Assembly (NCBI GenBank): GCA_030710605.1
Contig: CP092877.1
Span: forward strand, 5,139,569-5,203,568
Length of the DNA: 64,000 bases
DNA from: Cordylochernes scorpioides
Taxonomy: Eukaryota > Arthropoda > Arachnida > Pseudoscorpiones > Chernetidae
Direction of reading: 5' to 3'
The position numbers and the translations under genes are program-made. The notes below the pieces were generated by a model, which saw nothing but the letters and a program-made list of their open reading frames with translations, ran no database searches and was not told where the DNA came from. Shown in pieces: positions 15,651-59,799 of the stretch (position 1 is the stretch's first letter; each line of letters begins with the position of its first letter).

Positions 15651-15830
15651 ATATATAAATATAGACGGAAATTTTGCCGGGAGGAAATTATTCTAAAGAG
15701 ACAAGGGTCGCCTCTTCCGTCAAAACAGACGTCTAAAACCAGACGCCATCTATTGACCGTCGCCGCAACTAGCGGCCTCGGGTCGGTGACAAAGCCACAA
15801 CACACGCTTTTTCAAACTGAAAAGCGTCCA

Positions 15831-15874
15831 CCTAGAGACCCTGGTTTTGGGCTAATGGCCCTCGTCAGTCTAGG
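15831..15874 (-). ncRNA. Hammerhead ribozyme, R2 family, mutated core
   Basis: On the minus strand CCTAGA pairs with TCTAGG as stem I. CTGACGA is followed by a perfect stem II (GGGC/GCCC). The GAAA box reads AAAA, so the conserved G is lost and cleavage is unlikely. Stem III is ACC/GGT with a 2-base loop. Confidence 0.75.
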
Positions 15875-16236
15875 GCGGACTTTATTCCATGATCTCCACA
15901 CGGGATCTAATGGAATCTTGACAATCTGCTAAAGAGGTGTTTAGCTGGCAAAGTGGCTGGGCCATATCTATGGCTAAAATATAGACGGAAGTTTTGCCGG
16001 GAGGAAATTGATCTAAAGAAACAAGGGTCGCCTCTCCCGTCTGGTGGTCTGGTTTTAGACGTCTGTTTTGACGGGAGAGGCGACCCTTGTTTCTTTAGAT
16101 CAATTTCCTCCCGGCAAAATTCCTGTCTATATTTTAGCCATAGATATGGCCCAGCCACTTTACCAGCTAAACACCTTTTTGGCAGATTGTCAAGATTCCA
16201 TTAGATCCCGTGTGGATCTCATGAAATAAAGTCCGC

Positions 16237-16280
16237 CCTAGACTGACGAGGGCCATTATCCCGAAACCATGGTCTCTAGG
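16237..16280 (+). ncRNA. Hammerhead ribozyme, R2 family
   Basis: Type I layout: stem I CCTAGA/TCTAGG, extended outward by GTCC/GGAC; core CTGACGA; stem II GGG/CCC with one G-to-T mismatch at its base; GAAA intact; stem III ACC/GGT with a 2-base loop; GTC cleavage site after 16274. All conserved core positions are present. Confidence 0.82.
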
Positions 16281-16469
16281 TGGACGCTTTTCAGTTTGCC
16301 AAAGCTGGTGTTGTGGCTTTGTCACTGACTCGAGGCTGCTAGTTGCGGCGACGGTTAATAGATGGCGTCTGGTTTTAGACGTCTGTTTTGACGGGAGAGG
16401 CGACCCTTGTCTCTTTATATATATATAAATATATTGACTCTTAAATATATATTTTATATATGTCAAAAA

Positions 16470-17057
16470 AAATTAAAGAAGGCATAACCTGACCACGAGC
16501 ACATGTGCATTTAAGATGGTGCTCTGCCAGTAAGGGAAACCTTTACATTGGGTAAGGAATCAACCTCTCTAGTTTCATTTTGTTGAGAACAGATTCTTCA
16601 AACACACAGTCACACTAGATTCTATCAGCTGGTTCTTCTCAGGGATGCAAATTCTCCATCCATGTCCACGAGTGGCATAACTGACTAGAATTCCCTTAAG
16701 TACTCTTGGTTCAGGCTTTGATCTTCTTCTCTTCCTTGGTATGTGAACAAACATCCACACACTCTCAGATGTTGTGAACTTGGCTACCATCCAAACCACA
16801 ATTAAAATGGATTCTTCTCCTTGTTGTGCTTGTTTACAACCCTGTTCCCAGATATGCAGCGGTGTAGATCAATTCAGCCCACTAGGCATTTGAGAAATTA
16901 CAGCTATTCATTGTGCTTCTAACTAAATACAATGAAGACCTAATTCGCTCTGCAATGCCCTTTTTTTGCTAGGCATACACCATTTTGCGTTCATTTATAA
17001 TGCCATGATCCTTTGTGAAAATATCTCAAACCTGCGAACAAAATTCTAGTCCATTAT
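16470..17057 (-). pseudogene. Ty1/copia pol relic, integrase C-terminal part
   Basis: The minus strand reads NGLEF (the second acidic motif of copia integrase) near 17045, then after several breaks VWMVAKF and FVHIPRKRRRSKPEPRVLKG, followed by GWRICIPEKNQ. This is the stretch that joins integrase to RT in copia proteins. The relic is interrupted by the BEL/Pao element exactly before NGLEF; its other half is at 29212-29460. RT is missing to the left, where homology ends near 16470. Confidence 0.7.
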
Positions 17058-20174: not shown

Positions 20175-21029
20175 GTCATAATTTGTATATAATTAAATGC
20201 AACCCCGACCCACTATGTATGTATCATGTATGATTTTCAAAGATTTAATAAAAGAATAAGGTAACTGGAGGAAAGAAAGTAACAAAAGACATAGGAAGTA
20301 AATCTAGAGGAGAACATATTTATTAATAACGTCGCAGTTAACCTTCTGACCCCGGGTCCCTGCGAGCTAAGTTTAAACCAACACTTCCTGGAAAAACAGG
20401 ACGTATCTAGTGACCAGAAGTTATAAATGTTAAAGCTAGCACTCAATACTTCCTGACAAAACAGGACGTATTTTGATAACGCGGAAGTAAATAAAGTGGA
20501 AATAACACTCGACACTTCCTGTCAGGCAGGCCATATCTTTCATCAAGGAGAGCCGCGGGCCAATCAGAAGACAGCACCTTAAGTAGGTCAACCAATAGGA
20601 AAAGATCATGTGACATCTCTCGACCAATCAGAAGACAGCACCTTAAGTAGGTCAACCAATAGGAAAAGATCATGTGACATCTCTCGACCAATCAGAGAGA
20701 AACTGAGTCTTGGTGTTAAATCGAAAAACAAGAATAGTCAGTTGCTCCTTCGCTTCCAACAAGGTAACATCTACTCTAGAGATCTCTCTCCCTCCGCTCA
20801 TTTCATCTAAATCCCATCATCGCCATGTGATCAACTAATTAATAAGTCAAATCGCTCAACTCTTCTCAAGCTTTCTTCCCTCCAACCCAGTTGCTTTTTA
20901 TTTTCAAACCCCATCACGTGTCCTGATTATTCCTAACTGTGTGCTTCACTTACCACTCAACGACTGCGCTTCAACCAAATCTCACCATTCGCATCCAACA
21001 ACAAGAAACCCCTCAACGATATTGCCACA
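20174..21029 (+). repeat. 5' LTR of gypsy G3
   Basis: Starts TGTCATAATTTG and ends ATATTGCCACA. 856 bp, the same length as the 3' LTR. The difference I noticed is CTCAACG here against CGCAACG in the 3' LTR. Confidence 0.92.
20560..20695 (+). promoter_or_regulatory. Duplicated 64-bp enhancer-like unit in the G3 LTR
   Basis: CCAATCAG recurs at 20560, 20624 and 20688. Each 64-bp unit carries two CCAAT motifs (CCAATCAG, CCAATAGG) and TCATGTGACA, an E-box of the CATGTG type. The same array is in the 3' LTR from 26294. Duplicated upstream elements are common in active LTR promoters; activity here is inferred. Confidence 0.6.
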
Positions 21030-25907: not shown

Positions 25908-26763
25908 TGTCATAATTTGTATATAATTAAATGCAACCCCGACCCACTATGTATGTATCATGTATGATTTTCAAAGATTTAATAAAAGAATAAGGTAACT
26001 GGAGGAAAGAAAGTAACAAAAGACATAGGAAGTAAATCTAGAGGAGAACATATTTATTAATAACGTCGCAGTTAACCTTCTGACCCCGGGTCCCTGCGAG
26101 CTAAGTTTAAACCAACACTTCCTGGAAAAACAGGACGTATCTAGTGACCAGAAGTTATAAATGTTAAAGCTAGCACTCAATACTTCCTGACAAAACAGGA
26201 CGTATTTTGATAACGCGGAAGTAAATAAAGTGGAAATAACACTCGACACTTCCTGTCAGGCAGGCCATATCTTTCATCAAGGAGAGCCGCGGGCCAATCA
26301 GAAGACAGCACCTTAAGTAGGTCAACCAATAGGAAAAGATCATGTGACATCTCTCGACCAATCAGAAGACAGCACCTTAAGTAGGTCAACCAATAGGAAA
26401 AGATCATGTGACATCTCTCGACCAATCAGAGAGAAACTGAGTCTTGGTGTTAAATCGAAAAACAAGAATAGTCAGTTGCTCCTTCGCTTCCAACAAGGTA
26501 ACATCTACTCTAGAGATCTCTCTCCCTCCGCTCATTTCATCTAAATCCCATCATCGCCATGTGATCAACTAATTAATAAGTCAAATCGCTCAACTCTTCT
26601 CAAGCTTTCTTCCCTCCAACCCAGTTGCTTTTTATTTTCAAACCCCATCACGTGTCCTGATTATTCCTAACTGTGTGCTTCACTTACCACTCAACGACTG
26701 CGCTTCAACCAAATCTCACCATTCGCATCCAACAACAAGAAACCCCGCAACGATATTGCCACA
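25908..26763 (+). repeat. 3' LTR of gypsy G3
   Basis: Partner of 20174-21029, preceded by the polypurine tract and followed by the target duplication TACA. Confidence 0.92.
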
Positions 26764-27017
26764 TACATTAGGATGTTTTTGCATATTATTTTTTACTTAA
26801 GATATGTTTTTTATTTGGTTAAGGTATTTACATATTTTACTATTGTTTGCTATATTCTATGGATTATCTTATAGGTTCAGAATTCTATTATTTAAGTTAG
26901 TTTTATAATGGTTATTGGCTATTATCTATAAGTTACTTTTATTATTGTTGATATTATTAGCTGGTACTAGGGTATATTGTGTTATATGTTTCGGGCAAAT
27001 CTATTTTTCTATTGATG

Positions 27018-28083
27018 CTATTGTGTTTTTTTTTTTCTGGATAATAAAGATTCAATTATAAGCCTTTGATATTTGCTGTTTATGTTATTGTAATGTATTC
27101 TAGGTTCTTCTAATGCGAAAGTGTGGCCTGTTTCTTTGCAATGTTGGAAAATTAGAGATCTATTGTCTTGATTTATTATGTTGCGTTTATGTTCATATAT
27201 TCTATTGCTGACTCTCCTTCCTGTCTCCCCCACGTATTTGGCTTGGCAGTTGTTGCATTCTATGGAATATATTGCTTCTTTTTTGTTAGTGGGTTTTATG
27301 ATATTAGAATTATTTTTAGATAGTGGATTTTTAATGATGGAGCCTATGTTAGGGGAATTACTGTAATATGTTTGGATGCCGAAGTTTTTTAAGTAGTAGG
27401 CTATTGTTATAGATGTTAGTGAGTATGGAATGTAACATATTGCCCTGTAAATATCTGTAGTTTTGTTTATTGGGTTATTGATTGTTATACTTTTGTGGAA
27501 ATGTTTTAATATAAAGGTGGTTGGGTATCCTGCTTGCTGGAGATTATTTATAATGTTCTGTGTTTCAATCATTTTTGAAATCTGTTGCGAGCAATGGGTG
27601 TGTATTCTTTTGGTTAGTGTTTTAATTGTGTTTATCTTATGGCTTAGTGGGCAATATGAGGTGAAATGTATATAATTTGGTTCGAAACTTGGCTTGTAGT
27701 ATACGGAGGTTTGTAATCTGTTTTGTGACCTTATGATATTAATGTCTAAGAATGGTAGTTTATTGTTTTTTTCAACTTCTATTGTAAATTTGATTCTAGG
27801 GTGGTAGTTATTTAATGAGGTTAATATGTGGTTAACTTTGTTAGCTGTGCATATACAGAATATGTCGTCTATGTATATTTTATATATTATTATGTCTGTG
27901 GGGAATTGTGTAATTATCCATTTGTCTATTGTGTTCATAACTATTTCGGCTAACGGGGAAGATAGTGGGCTGCCCATGGGCGATTCTTTTATTTGTTTAA
28001 ATGATTGTGAGTTGAAATTAAAGATGTTCGATTTTAATGATATATCTATTAATTATATTATTTTGTTTATGACTGTTTGGTCT
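27018..28083 (-). pseudogene. Penelope-like RT C-terminal part plus GIY-YIG endonuclease (minus copy)
   Basis: Only the last third of the usual protein is present. A long open frame runs from the junction near 28083: FKQIKESPMGSPLSSPLAEI is RT motif B, KIYIDDIFCIC holds the catalytic Asp pair, and thumb sequence follows. The C-terminal 80 residues form the GIY-YIG endonuclease of Penelope-like elements: AIYSIECNNC, then AKYVGETGRRVSNRIYEHKR. RT motifs upstream are missing by 5' truncation, so no active enzyme is made from this copy. ATG at 27977 is internal and not the native start. The frame is otherwise undamaged, so the copy is young. Confidence 0.85.
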
Positions 28084-28761
28084 AATTATATACATTTCAC
28101 CTCATATTGCCCACTAAGCCATAAGATAAACACAATTAAAACACTAACCAAAAGAATACACACCCATTGCTCGCAACAGATTTCAAAAATGATTGAAACA
28201 CAGAACATTATAAATAATCTCCAGCAAGCAGGATACCCAACCACCTTTATATTAAAACATTTCCACAAAAGTATAACAATCAATAACCCAATAAACAAAA
28301 CCACAGATATTTACAGGGCAATATGTTACATTCCATTTTCACAAACATCTATAACAATAGCCAACTACTTAAAAAACTTCGGCATCCAAACATATTACAG
28401 TAATTCCCCTAACATAGGCTCCATCATTAAAATTCCACTATCTAAAAATAATTCTAATATCATAAAACCCACTAACAAAAAAGAAGCAATATATTCCATA
28501 GAATGCAACAACTGCCAAGCCAAATACGTGGGGGAGACAGGAAGGAGAGTCAGCAATAGAATATATGAACATAAACGCAACATAATAAATCAAGACAATA
28601 GATCTCTAATTTTCCAACATTGCAAAGAAACAGGCCACACTTTCGCATTAGAAGAACCTAGAATACATTACAATAACATAAACAGCAAATATCAAAGGCT
28701 TATAATTGAATCTTTATTATCCAGAAAAAAAAAAAACACAATAGCATCAATAGAAAAATAG
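28084..28761 (+). pseudogene. Penelope-like RT tail plus GIY-YIG endonuclease (plus copy)
   Basis: Begins NYIHFTSYCPLSHKIN, downstream of the RT catalytic Asp pair, and continues through an open GIY-YIG domain (YVGETGRRVSNRIYEHKR) to a stop at 28761. It is almost identical to the minus copy; two visible differences are YIPFSQTS for YIPYSLTS and IKIPLSK for IKNPLSK. The ORF that appears to start at 27826 is antisense to the minus copy for its first 85 codons, so its N-terminus is artificial. Confidence 0.82.
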
Positions 28762-29019
28762 ATTTGCCCGAAACATATAACACAATATACCCTAGTACCA
28801 GCTAATAATATCAACAATAATATAAGTAATTTATAGATAATAGCCAATAACCATTATAAAACTAACTTAAATAATAGAATTCTGAACCTATAAGATAATC
28901 CATAGAATATAGCAAACAATAGTAAAATATGTAAATACCTTAACCAAATAAAAAACATATCTTAAGTAAAAAATAATATGCAAAAACATCCTAATGTATA
29001 TATATATATATATATATAT

Positions 29020-29211: not shown

Positions 29212-29460
29212 ATCTTTTCGAATTTTGTTTACAGAATGATTTGTTTTCTTCACTACCTTAATTCCTTAATTTTNNNNNNNNNNNNNNNNNNNNNNNNNNN
29301 NNNNNNNNNNNNNNNNNNNNNNNNNNNNNNNNNNNNNNNNNNNNNNNNNNNNNNNNNNNNNNNNNNNNNNNNNCCTATTCCTCACTTTTGTTCTTGATAG
29401 AATGACCTCGAATGTATCTGGTGGCATCATCCCCAATGCATAGGACATAATGCGCACCTT
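29212..29460 (-). pseudogene. Ty1/copia integrase relic, N-terminal part of core (other half of 16470-17057)
   Basis: The minus strand reads VLCIGDDATRYIRG and IKNKSEE near 29450-29380, the first acidic motif region of copia integrase. After the assembly gap it gives VKKTNHSVNKIRKDE up to the BEL LTR. Across the BEL insertion the protein resumes with NGLEF at 17045. So the BEL element landed between the two parts of the RTDNG motif. Size across the gap is unknown. Confidence 0.65.
29274..29373. other. Assembly gap of 100 N
   Basis: Exactly 100 N, the usual placeholder for a gap of unknown size. It lies inside the copia integrase relic. Confidence 0.99.
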
Positions 29461-33934: not shown

Positions 33935-36087
33935 CGCTATTATTGATAGGATCAGAGTATTAAGAGAGGAGAATAAGAAAGTTCGAGTCAATAAAATATT
34001 AAATACCAAAAGGGCGATTATTCTACAAACGTCGGACGAAAGGGATTCTAATTTTCTAAAAGAGGAATTATGCCAATCAACCCAACAAACAGATCTTTGC
34101 AAAACATTTATTCCGATCAAAAGAGATCCTACGATAATAGTTTAAAATGTTTTTAAAAAATCACCGAGGTAAATTCCTTCGAAGAAACAATCTGTCAGTT
34201 AAACGACGAACTAAGGAATATGATAAGCGAATTTAATGTGGTATTCTGCACTAAATATAATACCCCGACTCGCAATATAGTTTTACGAGTTTCTCCTAAG
34301 GTTTATCAAACTATTAGGGAATTTAACAATAGAATATACACTGATTGTGAGCGCTGCGTTGTTGTAGATTAGATATTGGTGAAACAATGACAGAAATGTC
34401 TGAAATTCAACCCCACCCACAAAATGGCAGAATGCCCTAGCACCCCAATATGCAGGACATCTGGAGTTCGGGGAGTTATTGATTGCTCAGGAATTCCCAA
34501 ATGTCTCAACTGTTCCCAACATCCTAAGTATAGAAACAGGCCCCTATCACACAGAGCAAATTCAGAGGAATGTCCTATGTATAAAACACAAATGGACAGA
34601 ATAATCGCAAGAACAAGTTATTTACCAACTGAAAAGTCAAATGGCTAACTATTTCAAGTCAAACAGGATAGAATGCAAGTTCTGTTTTTTTAAGTGTGTG
34701 CAACAAAATCTAAGAAAAACATATACGCAACAAATGAAATTCTGGCTCAGAAAGCTAACGACCCACCAAACATATTATTTATTCAGGAGCCTTATACAGT
34801 GAAGAATGTTGCCATTTTTGGCGGATGCGAGCATTCAGTTTTAACATCTAAAGAAAGCAAGATAAATTCAGAAAAAAATATTTTAAATAAAGGGTTAAAA
34901 TCAATAAGATATATCAATTCACCAACTCATTTTGTACTACAATCTCAATACATTTCTCAAAGTCAAATATTATTCTAGAAAATTTTTACATTCTCCCTAA
35001 CTCCTTTTCAGAATCCCATCAAAAGGTTTTTGAGGAAATTTTGGAAACTTTCAAACTTCAACCGATTCTGCTTTGTGGGGATTTTAACTCTAGGCCTCCC
35101 GTCTGGTATGATAGGATGACTAACTTAGCCATTCAATAGTGAACCAACACAATCTTTTCGTCCACAATACTAAAACTGCAACGTGTCGTAATTCCAGCGT
35201 GATCGACCTCACTATCTCCAACAGAAATTCAATAAGTCTATTAAAACTCTGGAATATATCCATAATGTCGGACACCTCTGATCACGTGACAATAACCTAT
35301 GAGATGATTTGTAAAGACAACAGTAATATAGACGGATATAAATCAACATGGAAATTCAGCGAAACTGACGCAAACTGGAGTGCATTTTATGGAAAACTTT
35401 CGTCTCCTGAATTGCTAAGCCTCATGGATGTAACAAACCAAATAAAAAATCCAGAAAGTATAAATAGAGCTGTTTATAAACTCACAGATATTATCAGGGA
35501 AGCAGCTTACGCATCCCTCAAGTTAAAATCAACCATAAACAGAAAAATCAAATTCAAATGGTGGACGAATAAACTTGAAAAATTGAAAATGATTTTAATT
35601 ATATGAAAACTTATTCTATCGAAGCAAAATAATTCATGAGAGAATTTTTAAAGCTGTTCGTAGCAAATATAATAAAGCTTTAACAAAGCAAAATTTAATA
35701 GCTGGAGATTCTTTCTAGAAGAAAACGAATCAAATAATCCTTTTGGTAACACTTACAAAACCTTCAAGAGAGACTCAAAAGCATCATATAACATAGCACG
35801 GATTTCATTGATAGACAACGCAACGGATTTTACTAGGACTTCTAAAATGGAAGGTTTACTAAACGATCTTTTCCCGGACGATAATATTTCTTCCGAGGAG
35901 GAACTTCACAAGGCAACTAGAAATTACTCTCCAATTTAAAATAATAGAAAAGGGTGATGATAAACCCAAAAGATATTGAATCAATTATTGTATCAATGCA
36001 AAATAGGAAAGCACCTGGACCAGATAATATTAGCAATAATATGAAAAAATTCGCCTATCCTAAAATTTCCACAATCATCCATCAAAT
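33935..36087 (+). pseudogene. R1/I-like LINE, older copy A (ORF1 and 5' part of ORF2)
   Basis: The ORF1 remnant includes LNDELRNMISEFNVVFCTKY and zinc knuckles in broken frames (CSGIPKCLNCSQHPKYRNRP, as in copy B). ORF2 endonuclease follows from about 34690: FIQEPYTVKNVAIFGG, LLCGDFNSRPPVW, SVIDLTISNRNS and TSDHVTITYEM. Similarity to copy B ends near 36087 in the early RT region (APGPDNISNN). Many stops and indels make it much older than copy B. Confidence 0.85.
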
Positions 36088-36629
36088 CAAGGGATGTGTG
36101 GAGTAATGTAAGTTGGTGTATGGTTGAAGGTGATACTTCCAATTTTGAAGTGGCGATATATGCTTTAAAAATTGATGTGAGTTGGGGGAGGTAGTTTAGT
36201 TTAGAGGGTCCTTCTCGTGGTTTAATTCAATTAAAGTAGTGCTCAATGAATGTATGGACCTTTGTACGATATTCTGTGCTAAATAGGAGCAGTAAAGAAT
36301 TTGGACCTAGTGGCTACGTTTTAGATCGTGAAAAATATTCATATATATGCCTAAATGAGTTCTTCAAAGAAATATAAAGTGTAATTTATCAGGAATTGTA
36401 GCCTTAGTGAAATCATATGCGGGGGGTTAGAGGAAGATGAAAAATTGAATAAGATGAGATTGCCCAAATAAAATGTTATGGCCAGGAGGGGCAGCGCGAG
36501 CAGGAGGGTGTCAAATTCCGCTTAGGGGCTTTATGGGGTCAATTGACCGGATGACCGATTAGTCGGCTTGCTTGGAAATGTATTTCTATGATTTGGATCC
36601 ATTGTGTTATTAAGAAATTTTGTGATGTA
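36088..36629. other. Unassigned sequence between LINE A and the retrozyme array
   Basis: About 540 bases of mixed composition. A G-rich tract (AGGAGGGGCAGCGCGAGCAG) lies near 36485. No ORF above background and no match elsewhere in the window was noticed. Confidence 0.5.
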
Positions 36630-36786
36630 CATAGATTATTTTAAGAAAAAGGCATCTCCTTATCGTGCAACTGAAAGTTGCTGATGGCTAGCGCCATCTA
36701 TCGGAATAAATATCAACTATTCTCGTTGATTTTTAATTATTCCAGAATTGGCCAAATACCCATTCTTGATTAATCAAGAAAAGCTA

Positions 36787-36828
36787 ACCACGGACGCGTT
36801 TCGGGCTGTTGGCCCTCATCAGCGTGGT
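36787..36828 (-). ncRNA. Hammerhead ribozyme, R1 family, inverted unit
   Basis: Full type I core on the minus strand: stem I ACCACG/CGTGGT, CTGATGA, stem II GGGC/GCCC with CAACA loop, GAAA, a very short stem III, and GTC cleavage site. All conserved bases are intact. Confidence 0.88.
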
Positions 36829-37139
36829 GCAAGCTGTACCTCAACGACCAAAAAATTGGTCATTAAGGCATCCTGAAAAATCATGAAACGGGTAGTTAAG
36901 GCCAGAATTGCGTGAGGACGCTACACAATGTGAAAAAATAGCACAAATGTAACTTTCAGTTGCACGATAAGGAGATGCCTTTTTCTTAATTTATGCACCT
37001 TATCCCAGTACAATGTTACATTTGTGCTATTTTTTCACATTGTGTAGCGTCCTCACGCAATTCTGGCCTTAACTACCCGTTTCATGATTTTTCAGGATGC
37101 CTTAATGACCAATTTTTTGGTCGTTGAGGTACAGCTTGC

Positions 37140-37181
37140 ACCACGCTGATGAGGGCCAACAGCCCAAAACGCGTCCGTGGT
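37140..37181 (+). ncRNA. Hammerhead ribozyme, R1 family, unit 1 (mutated)
   Basis: As the other units, but the GAAA box at 37166-37169 reads AAAA. Loss of this G should abolish or strongly reduce cleavage. Confidence 0.82.
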
Positions 37182-37553
37182 TAGCTTTTCTTGATTAATC
37201 AAGAATGGGTATTTGGCCAATTCTGGAATAATTAAAAATCAACGAGAATAGTTGATATTTATTCCGATAGATGGCGCTAGCCATCAGCAACTTTCAGTTG
37301 CACGATAAGGAGATGCCTTTTTCTTAATTTATGCACCTTATCCCAGTACAATGTTACATTTGTGCTATTTTTTCACATTGTGTAGCGTCCTCACGCAATT
37401 CTGGCCTTAACTACCCGTTTCATGATTTTTCAGGATGCCTTAATTTTTTCACATTGTGTAGCGTCCTCACGCAATTCTGGCCTTAACTACCCGTTTCATG
37501 ATTTTTCAGGATGCCTTAATGACCAATTTTTTGGTCGTTGAGGTACAGCTTGC

Positions 37554-37595
37554 ACCACGCTGATGAGGGCCAACAGCCCGAAACGCGTCCGTGGT
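37554..37595 (+). ncRNA. Hammerhead ribozyme, R1 family, unit 2
   Basis: Intact core CTGATGA / GGGC-CAACA-GCCC / GAAA with stem I ACCACG/CGTGGT and an outer AGCT/AGCT helix. Predicted cleavage after GTC at 37589. Confidence 0.9.
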
Positions 37596-37891
37596 TAGCT
37601 TTTCTTTATTAATCAAGAATGGGTATTTGGCCAATTCTGGAATAATTAAAAATCAACGAGAATAGTTGATATTTATTCCGATAGATGGCGCTAGCCATCA
37701 GCAACTTTCAGTTGCACGATAAGGAGATGCTTTTTTCTTAATTTATGCACCTTATCCCAGTACAATGTTATATTTGTGCTATTTTTTCACATTGTGTAGC
37801 GTCCTCACGCAATTCTGGCCTTAACTACCCGTTTCATGATTTTTCAGGATGCCTTAATGACCAATTTTTTGGTCGTTGAGGTACAGCTTGC

Positions 37892-37933
37892 ACCACGCTG
37901 ATGAGGGCCAACAGCCCGAAACGCGTCCGTGGT
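37892..37933 (+). ncRNA. Hammerhead ribozyme, R1 family, unit 3
   Basis: Intact; predicted cleavage after 37927, exactly 338 bases beyond that of unit 2. A transcript through both would release a 338-nt RNA. Confidence 0.9.
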
Positions 37934-38126
37934 TAGCTTTTCTTGATTAATCAAGAATGGGTATTTGGCCAATTCTGGAATAATTAAAAATCAACGAGAA
38001 TAGTTGATATTTATTCCGATAGATGGCGCTAGCCATCAGCAACTTTCAGTTGCACGATAAGGAGATGCCTTTTTCTTAATTTATTCACCTTATCCCAGTA
38101 CAATGTTACATTTGTTTCTTTTTTTT

Positions 38127-38193
38127 CATAGATTATTTTGTACAAGTTCGTACAAGTTTGTACAAAATAATCTATGTACATCACAAAATTTCT
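38127..38193. repeat. Palindromic host sequence at the array insertion site
   Basis: CATAGATTATTTTGTACAA is followed after a short loop by its inverse complement, and the 30 bases at 38164-38193 are the inverse complement of 36613-36642 left of the array. The original site was thus a hairpin of about 80 bp, perhaps a small MITE. Confidence 0.7.
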
Positions 38194-59346: not shown

Positions 59347-59799
59347 ACTTCGCACATCAGCTCTTGCGCCACTTTTCCTACCGGACATCACGTGCCCTGG
59401 CGGCACGCTGACTGTACCTGTAGTTAAAGTTTTGGTTTCTGTTACTACGCTTGCCTTTTTGCCTCTTTTGTTCTTTGCCATCTCAATCTAATTTATATAA
59501 TATTATATATTATATTATATTTATATTATATTATCTTAATCTAATTCTTGATTAATCAAGAATGGGTATTTGGCCAATTCTGGAATAATTAAAAATCAAC
59601 GAGAATAGTTGATATTTATTCCGATAGATGGCGCAAGCCATCAGCAACTATCAGTTGCACGATAAGTAGATGCCTTTTTCTTAATTTATGCTCCTTATCC
59701 CAGTACAATATTACATTTGTGCTATTTTTTCACATCTTAATCTAATGTTTTTGTAAATAAAACAATAATATCAGAGATCCAACCTCTGATTCTCTTACA
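59335..59799 (+). repeat. 3' LTR of the copia relic, interrupted
   Basis: TGTTGGAGAGTAAC to CTCTTACA, with AATAAAAC before the end. About 265 bp without the retrozyme insertion and one copy of its duplication. The end is inferred from the TG...CA rule, as no partner LTR is present. Confidence 0.65.
59533..59746 (+). mobile_element. Solo R1 retrozyme fragment with 13-bp target duplication
   Basis: 59546-59733 (188 bp) matches the 338-bp R1 monomer from TCTTGATTAATCAAGAATGG to TTTTTTCAC, with a few substitutions (GGCGCAAGCC for GGCGCTAGCC). ATCTTAATCTAAT flanks it at 59533-59545 and 59734-59746. It is a 5'-truncated partial unit without the hammerhead. The duplication has the same length as that of the big array. 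Confidence 0.85.

Follow-up and report, generated by a model that had tools for sequence, protein, structure and literature searches.

A head-to-head hammerhead retrozyme with two paired end sites in Cordylochernes scorpioides and its probable link to Penelope-like elements

The insertion and its target

The window is the whole stretch of 64,000 nucleotides analysed here (C15:5139569-5203568), from the genome of the pseudoscorpion Cordylochernes scorpioides, which comprises 2.62 Gb in 24 contigs. One insertion occupies 36643-38126 and is flanked by an exact 13-bp direct repeat, CATAGATTATTTT. The following features are found in the insertion and its target:

36613-36642, no strand: left piece of a palindromic MITE-like element
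36630-36642, no strand: left copy of the 13-bp target duplication CATAGATTATTTT, exact repeat
36643-36953, minus strand: inverted arm, about 0.9 unit, with its outer end at site A (unit position about 220)
36773-36838, minus strand: type I hammerhead with an intact core (36787), match to Rfam RF02275 (HH9)
36951-38126, plus strand: direct arm, about 3.5 units, with its outer end at site B (unit position about 268)
37130-37195, plus strand: type I hammerhead with GAAA changed to AAAA, match to RF02275
37544-37609, plus strand: type I hammerhead with an intact core, predicted cleavage at 37589/37590, helix III palindrome ACGCGU
37735-37742, plus strand: site A of an internal unit, U-run ending at 37740, in a hairpin loop of the folded unit
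37783-37790, plus strand: site B of an internal unit, U-run at 37783-37788 followed by CA
37882-37947, plus strand: type I hammerhead with an intact core, predicted cleavage at 37927/37928
38127-38139, no strand: right copy of the 13-bp target duplication CATAGATTATTTT, exact repeat
38127-38193, no strand: right piece of the palindromic MITE-like element

The inverted and direct arms meet head-to-head at 36951-36953, and the MITE-like element is split by the insertion. A 338-bp period extends across 36951-38128, with one spacing of 414 bp that is due to an internal 76-bp duplication at 37367-37520. The first-pass annotation described 36630-38139 as a tandem array of 338-bp units. The direct arm is indeed periodic, but with 36643-36953 inverted the array is only partly tandem, and the core at 36787 lies on the minus strand. 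The limits given are the outer limits of the 13-bp repeats, and the insertion itself is shorter. Neither the head-to-head structure nor the palindromic helix III described below was part of that annotation.

The GC content of 36001-38000 is 0.394, which is counted as low. No stop-to-stop frame of at least 120 amino acids overlaps the insertion. The absence of a frame for reverse transcriptase (RT) and GIY-YIG endonuclease means that it is not itself a Penelope-like element (PLE). A near-identical twin at C15:5112516-5113587 (L058), about 64 kb away, has the same flanks and duplication, and the region was therefore duplicated after the insertion. Elsewhere, the window contains a run of N at 29274-29373, and one 64-bp tandem repeat is present at both 20560-20696 and 26294-26430, 5.7 kb apart.

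The hammerhead ribozyme and the fold of the unit

The hammerhead consists, in order, of CCACG, CUGAUGA, GGGC CAACA GCCC, GAAA, CGCG, UC, the cleavage point, and CGUGG, which makes it type I and not type III. The three intact hammerheads match RF02275 with 26.5-26.6 bits (E about 6e-4) and the AAAA copy with 23.6 bits; all four fall under the family gathering score of 52, and no hammerhead at or above the Rfam gathering score is present in the 64-kb window. A type I descriptor (CUGANGA, stem II of at least 3 bp, GAAA, and stem I of at least 5 bp) matches four sites in the window, namely the three intact cores of the insertion and 16243, where the mean expected by chance is 0.005 per window, both strands together (200 order-1 random sequences). 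Together with the 338-bp period, these matches confirm that the hammerhead array is real and that three of its four cores are intact, while one has GAAA changed to AAAA. The profile and descriptor check that the first pass had proposed recovers the three intact cores, but with RF02275 scores below the gathering score. The sequence also agrees with the earlier statement that the two predicted cleavage sites are exactly 338 nt apart. A match to MIR841 at 36870-37099 (113 bits, gathering score 200) was rejected as an effect of the inverted arms.

Helix III comprises one A-U pair closed by CGCG, and the resulting ACGCGU is a perfect palindrome. Cleavage is for this reason expected mainly as a dimer, and cleavage of a single-unit transcript may look weak. 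The axolotl hammerhead HHR_Amex1 also has a single base-paired stem with a palindromic tetraloop, and its cleavage is poor in the monomer but much improved in the dimer, according to the parts of PMC7229834 consulted; dimer-dominated cleavage is expected for the 338-bp family by analogy.

An internal loop in stem I and a loop on stem II are both present, as potential partners of the loop 1-loop 2 tertiary contact of the canonical type I motif. The unit folds strongly (z -6.05), with 0 of 100 shuffles equally stable, and the minimum fold of a single copy also pairs part of the hammerhead core. The hammerhead without helix III has a fold of -15.3. The predicted dimer fold is -44.2 kcal/mol compared to 2 x -19.2 kcal/mol, and its shape is domain-swapped rather than a clean double hammerhead, so that it is no evidence for a dimeric ribozyme.

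Both core segments are kept in 108 of 118 near-complete hammerhead copies from 36 loci. Copies, which share ancestry, differ less in the hammerhead region (41/5782 compared positions) than in the remainder of the unit (669/35340). When copies of the related family fam2 (L027, L073, L070) are compared to the first family, fam1, two-sided changes that keep the helix occur at one pair of stem II, two of helix a, zero to one of helix b, and three of helix d; because one helix is out of place in the MAFFT family alignments, the helices were paired by hand, a procedure that favours those that fit. In L070, helix b has one broken pair.

Copies across the genome

A search with the 338-bp unit gives 171 matches in the best 40 of 1372 candidate places genome-wide. 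Candidate places are not counted loci, and the loci analysed are the most similar ones. The matches were grouped by hand into 39 loci (the window and 38 others) and mapped onto the circular unit, on which positions are given as u. In 34 of the 39 loci, on many contigs, a minus block precedes a plus block, which places a 3' start point of cDNA at each outer end. The remaining loci, L036, L038, L043, L050, and L056, have a single block. The longest arm (L030) measures about 2 kb, or about six rounds of the unit.

The outer ends cluster at two sites about 48 nt apart. Site A lies at u219-226 in the counted insertions and reads ...GCCTTTTTCTT then AA; site B lies at u264-275 and reads ...CTATTTTTT then CA. 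The count is based on 23 de-duplicated two-armed insertions with a duplication of at least 9 bp, taken from 41 insertions at the 39 loci. Ten have A on the left and B on the right, 11 have the reverse, L048 has B on both sides, and L052 has an unclassified left end. Ends of the A/B or B/A kind are present in 21 of the 22 classifiable two-armed insertions (p = 5.3e-6 versus independent ends). The 18 insertions left out are the duplicates L032 and L058, the LINE-joined L026, L035, L045, L049, and L057, the second copy in L034, both copies in L046, and eight more (L036, L038, L043, L050, L051, L054, L055, and L056), which have one arm, are cut by the locus edge, or have a duplication that is shorter than 9 bp or absent. 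L043 (9 bp) and L056 (17 bp, in an AT repeat) were excluded as one-armed despite their duplication.

The inner joints lie at variable unit positions. Of 37 joints, counted with the duplicates L031/L032 and L058/window, 23 overlap by 0-3 nt, two by 7-9 nt, and 12 are gapped by 1-19 nt. The divergence of units in 22 insertions is 0.80% within the same arm (208/26009), 1.06% between opposite arms of one insertion (279/26391), and 2.33% between different insertions. L022 and L029 have no difference within or between arms. Counter to the trend, the opposite-arm units of L027 and L044 are no closer than units of other insertions, and in L034 the two are about equal. The likeness of the two arms fits one RNA circle copied from both ends, and a homogeneous linear multimer is also compatible with it.

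Target-site duplications

The duplications have a median length of 13 bp over the 23 insertions and reach at least 11 bp in 22 of them. Swapped flanks of all 23 insertions, used as a control, have a median of 6, yet 20% of the pairs reach 11 bp, a consequence of the many AT-repeat targets. For the 11 insertions with non-repetitive targets, the duplications are 9-14 bp and the swapped flanks at most 9. L027 and L029 lie in long AT repeats, and their duplication length is consequently uncertain.

Related copies and families

Two further insertions are found in the window:

15664-16420, no strand: second retrozyme family of the window (fam3), 320-bp unit, inverted and direct arm head-to-head
59546-59733, plus strand: copy of the first family with one arm, truncated at its 5' end, which ends near site B

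The fam3 insertion has a hammerhead core at 16243 on the plus strand, a helix III palindrome ACCAUGGU, unequal ends, and a 13-bp duplication, ATATATAAATATA, at 15651-15663 and 16421-16433. Its sequence is unlike that of the first family, but its anatomy is alike. A fam2-like retrozyme end piece on the minus strand at 16420-16520 lies directly against the A end of fam3 within a single AT-rich tract. The copy at 59546-59733 is flanked by a 13-bp duplication, ATCTTAATCTAAT, at 59533-59545 and 59734-59746. The family fam2 has a period of about 350 bp, with up to about 11 units in a row, and gives 65 matches in the best 40 of 1767 candidate places.

Penelope-like elements of the same genome

The PLE query P0017 gives 155 matches in the best 78 of 30198 candidate places, with many open frames of 785-863 amino acids. 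Six head-to-head PLE pairs were noticed among the listed matches, and both ends were read for four. All four have unequal ends, about 31-34 nt apart. The PLE on C22 has A (p1374) on the left and B (p1408) on the right, that on C12 has B on the left and A on the right, and those on C13 and C8 (792-aa family) have one end longer by about 31-32 nt, with the boundary set by eye. The longest flank words shared by the four are 13, 13, 14, and 12 bp. Ends of the F785 PLEs L082 and L086, one seen in each, fall at p1374-1375. L092 (C12) contains an F785-type PLE in an AT tract right beside a fam3-like retrozyme (by eye), and PLEs and retrozymes therefore share target tracts.

The window itself holds a PLE fragment at 26763-28999, a head-to-head palindrome with equal ends and a central unpaired part. 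It has an RT match and a weak GIY-YIG match, and belongs to another PLE type than those read elsewhere. No target duplication was seen by eye at this fragment.

When an insertion is described as PLE-like by its inverted arms, a tail at one end, and a short duplication, 21 of 22 retrozyme insertions and 4 of 4 PLEs have this form, and the PLE of the window has equal ends. This shared anatomy (unequal ends and short duplications, of 12-14 bp in the PLEs), together with the open PLE frames, points to PLE machinery as the probable mover. The equal-ended cases, L048 (B/B) and the PLE of the window, count against this reading, and so do the one-armed insertions (the five single-block loci and the window copy at 59546-59733).

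The similarity does not extend far into the sequence. There is a likeness between the F785 PLE end near ACGTTTTTTCA and the B end of the retrozyme, CTATTTTTTCA, though runs so short may match by chance, and nothing longer than short U-run motifs links the retrozyme to the PLEs read. When the unit was compared with 30 PLE loci, L073 gave a match to an adjoining fam2-like hammerhead and L070 one to a fam2-like fragment, and a further match of 28 nt had E 0.36. The last, between site B and one PLE family, was dropped, as it lies away from the PLE ends.

LINE joints and alternative explanations

In L026, L035, L045, L049, and L057, the retrozyme stops at u23-27, just 5' of the hammerhead, and a sense LINE ORF1-like frame follows. 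These frames carry different 5' leaders; the LINE ORF1 naming is the authors' own, and two of the frames have no Pfam match. With the L057 joint as query, 31 of the best 40 of 1523 candidate places span the joint, which is not a frequency, as top scores favour the joint. Nine of the places are without it, and in all six of these that were read, fam1, fam2, and fam3 are absent beside the LINE. Three LINE copies without a retrozyme (L097, L099, L101) share another leader with a TATA-like box. The array ends at u23-27 were ruled out as a third start site, being joints to LINE ORF1-like frames, and a LINE that enters retrozymes only is not borne out by the six LINE copies without an adjoining retrozyme. 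Either the LINE often enters retrozymes at u23-27, or retrozyme DNA is captured by the LINE as a 5' module.

A LINE could also be what moves the retrozyme: target-primed reverse transcription would start from one strand, and the inverted arm would come from twin priming or template jumping. LINEs with endonuclease and RT domains are present in the window, LINE ORF1-like frames adjoin retrozyme units at the 31 places named above, and twin priming yields inverted arms. In twin priming, the second cDNA starts inside the RNA, at a variable point. Against a LINE as mover, the outer ends of the retrozyme, each a 3' start point, lie at two fixed sites, and 21 of 22 insertions use both sites, one on each side; the PLEs of the same genome also have like ends and a like duplication length. 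This explanation is considered unlikely.

A second possibility is that the arrays are solo pLTRs of a PLE, and thus fragments of an autonomous element and not an element of their own. PLEs carry hammerheads in their pLTRs (PMC7761336, in the parts consulted), and the head-to-head PLEs of this genome have the same anatomy. However, the 338-bp unit has no convincing match among the 30 PLE loci compared, the units repeat whole and lack a coding part, and the hammerhead-like stem of the two PLE families read has CUGUAGA instead of CUGAUGA. A solo pLTR origin is thus very unlikely. A third possibility, plain satellite DNA that carries a hammerhead and has spread through unequal exchange or as DNA circles, with a later inversion at the head-to-head joint, agrees with the tandem units, with the homogeneity within arrays, and with newt hammerhead satellites of about 330 bp (cited in PMC7229834, seen in part), but satellites are arrays without insertion signatures, and the dispersed insertions with duplications, the fixed outer ends, and the head-to-head arms found on many contigs (34 of 39 loci) render it hardly credible.

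Comparison with known systems

Animal non-LTR retrozymes: The retrozymes of coral, mussel, and axolotl have a type I hammerhead, low GC, no coding part, duplications of more than 4 bp, and multi-unit arrays of about 170-400 bp, in the parts of PMC7229834 consulted. The insertions described here share these traits, with 338-bp units in multi-unit arrays, 13-bp duplications, and a helix III like that of HHR_Amex1, in which one pair is closed by a palindromic tetraloop. The unit lengths of 338 bp, 320 bp (fam3), and about 350 bp (fam2) all lie within the range of about 150-450 bp, in at least two copies, that defines these elements. The retrozyme reading of the first-pass annotation is supported by these likenesses and by the dispersal of the insertions. 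The sequence and host are different. Head-to-head arms with paired A/B ends are not mentioned for animal non-LTR retrozymes in the consulted parts of PMC7229834.

Plant LTR retrozymes: These are likewise non-coding hammerhead retroelements, and they form circular RNA. They differ in having a type III hammerhead, LTRs with PBS and PPT, and a 4-bp duplication, where the present family has type I and 13 bp (PMC7229834 and PMC7761336, each in part).

Adineta vaga Pen2a_Av: This PLE resembles the present insertions in its head-to-head inverted terminal repeats, and has a 9-bp duplication and a 31-bp tail on one inverted pLTR (PMC3846280, parts consulted). In contrast, it is autonomous and codes for RT and GIY-YIG endonuclease. 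The same parts of that paper favour self-priming on an antisense template.

Anolis PAc: The PLE PAc is similar in that its RT starts at two adjacent internal sites and both strands of an AT-rich target are cut and extended, whereas it is autonomous and starts in an AC-rich stem loop (PMC11167929, parts consulted). A dimer is predicted, and hammerhead mutants still inserted. No strand preference for the start site is reported in vitro, which counts against a one-site-per-strand rule.

Schistosoma mansoni W elements: The W elements are repeats that resemble satellites, and some of them have a type I hammerhead and what may be a target duplication. A paired-end head-to-head structure is not mentioned in the parts of PMC8490949 consulted.

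PLEs have been proposed as movers since PLEs and retrozymes occur together (PMC7229834, in part), and the consulted text of PMC7761336 states that animal retrozyme repeats lack any conserved motif that would identify the mobilising element. No paired ends of retrozymes were found among the titles and abstracts of the literature searched (with bioRxiv and most subscription papers outside its scope), and no description of a 338-bp retrozyme family in C. scorpioides was found there. The family is probably a further animal non-LTR retrozyme, and its paired A/B ends are a new observation.

Proposed mechanism and meaning

The insertion in the window is probably an animal non-LTR retrozyme, that is, a non-autonomous retroelement, moved by PLE-type machinery. 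Judged by its sequence, the RNA of the first family should cut itself into circles. Its own hammerheads, acting mostly as dimers owing to the perfectly palindromic helix III, would cut the transcript into 338-nt RNAs, and a host ligase, as suggested by work on other animals, would close these into circles. A PLE RT with GIY-YIG endonuclease may then make cuts about 13 nt apart in the two strands of an AT-rich target, which would leave the duplication that is observed. Both target strands would prime cDNA on RNA of one sequence, one at the U-run of site A and the other at the U-run of site B, where the ends are found. Each cDNA may circle the template several times, and the two cDNAs would be joined head-to-head; the joined structure is seen in the insertions, and the order of these events is presumed.

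In the fullest form of this proposal, which is given about an even chance of being correct, each insertion is the record of a single RNA circle bound to a dimer of PLE protein. Its two subunits would sit at the U-run sites A and B, each would copy from one of the staggered strands, and the rolling cDNAs would be joined head-to-head. The same rule of one site per strand, rather than self-priming, would also account for two features of PLEs, their inverted arms and their one-sided tail, and PLEs would be the movers of animal retrozymes.

The evidence bears on the mechanistic question of which enzyme may move animal retrozymes. In this genome, where many PLE frames are open, the anatomy of the insertions itself links retrozymes to PLEs. 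The same anatomy suggests that PLE integration may follow a rule of one start site for each DNA strand.
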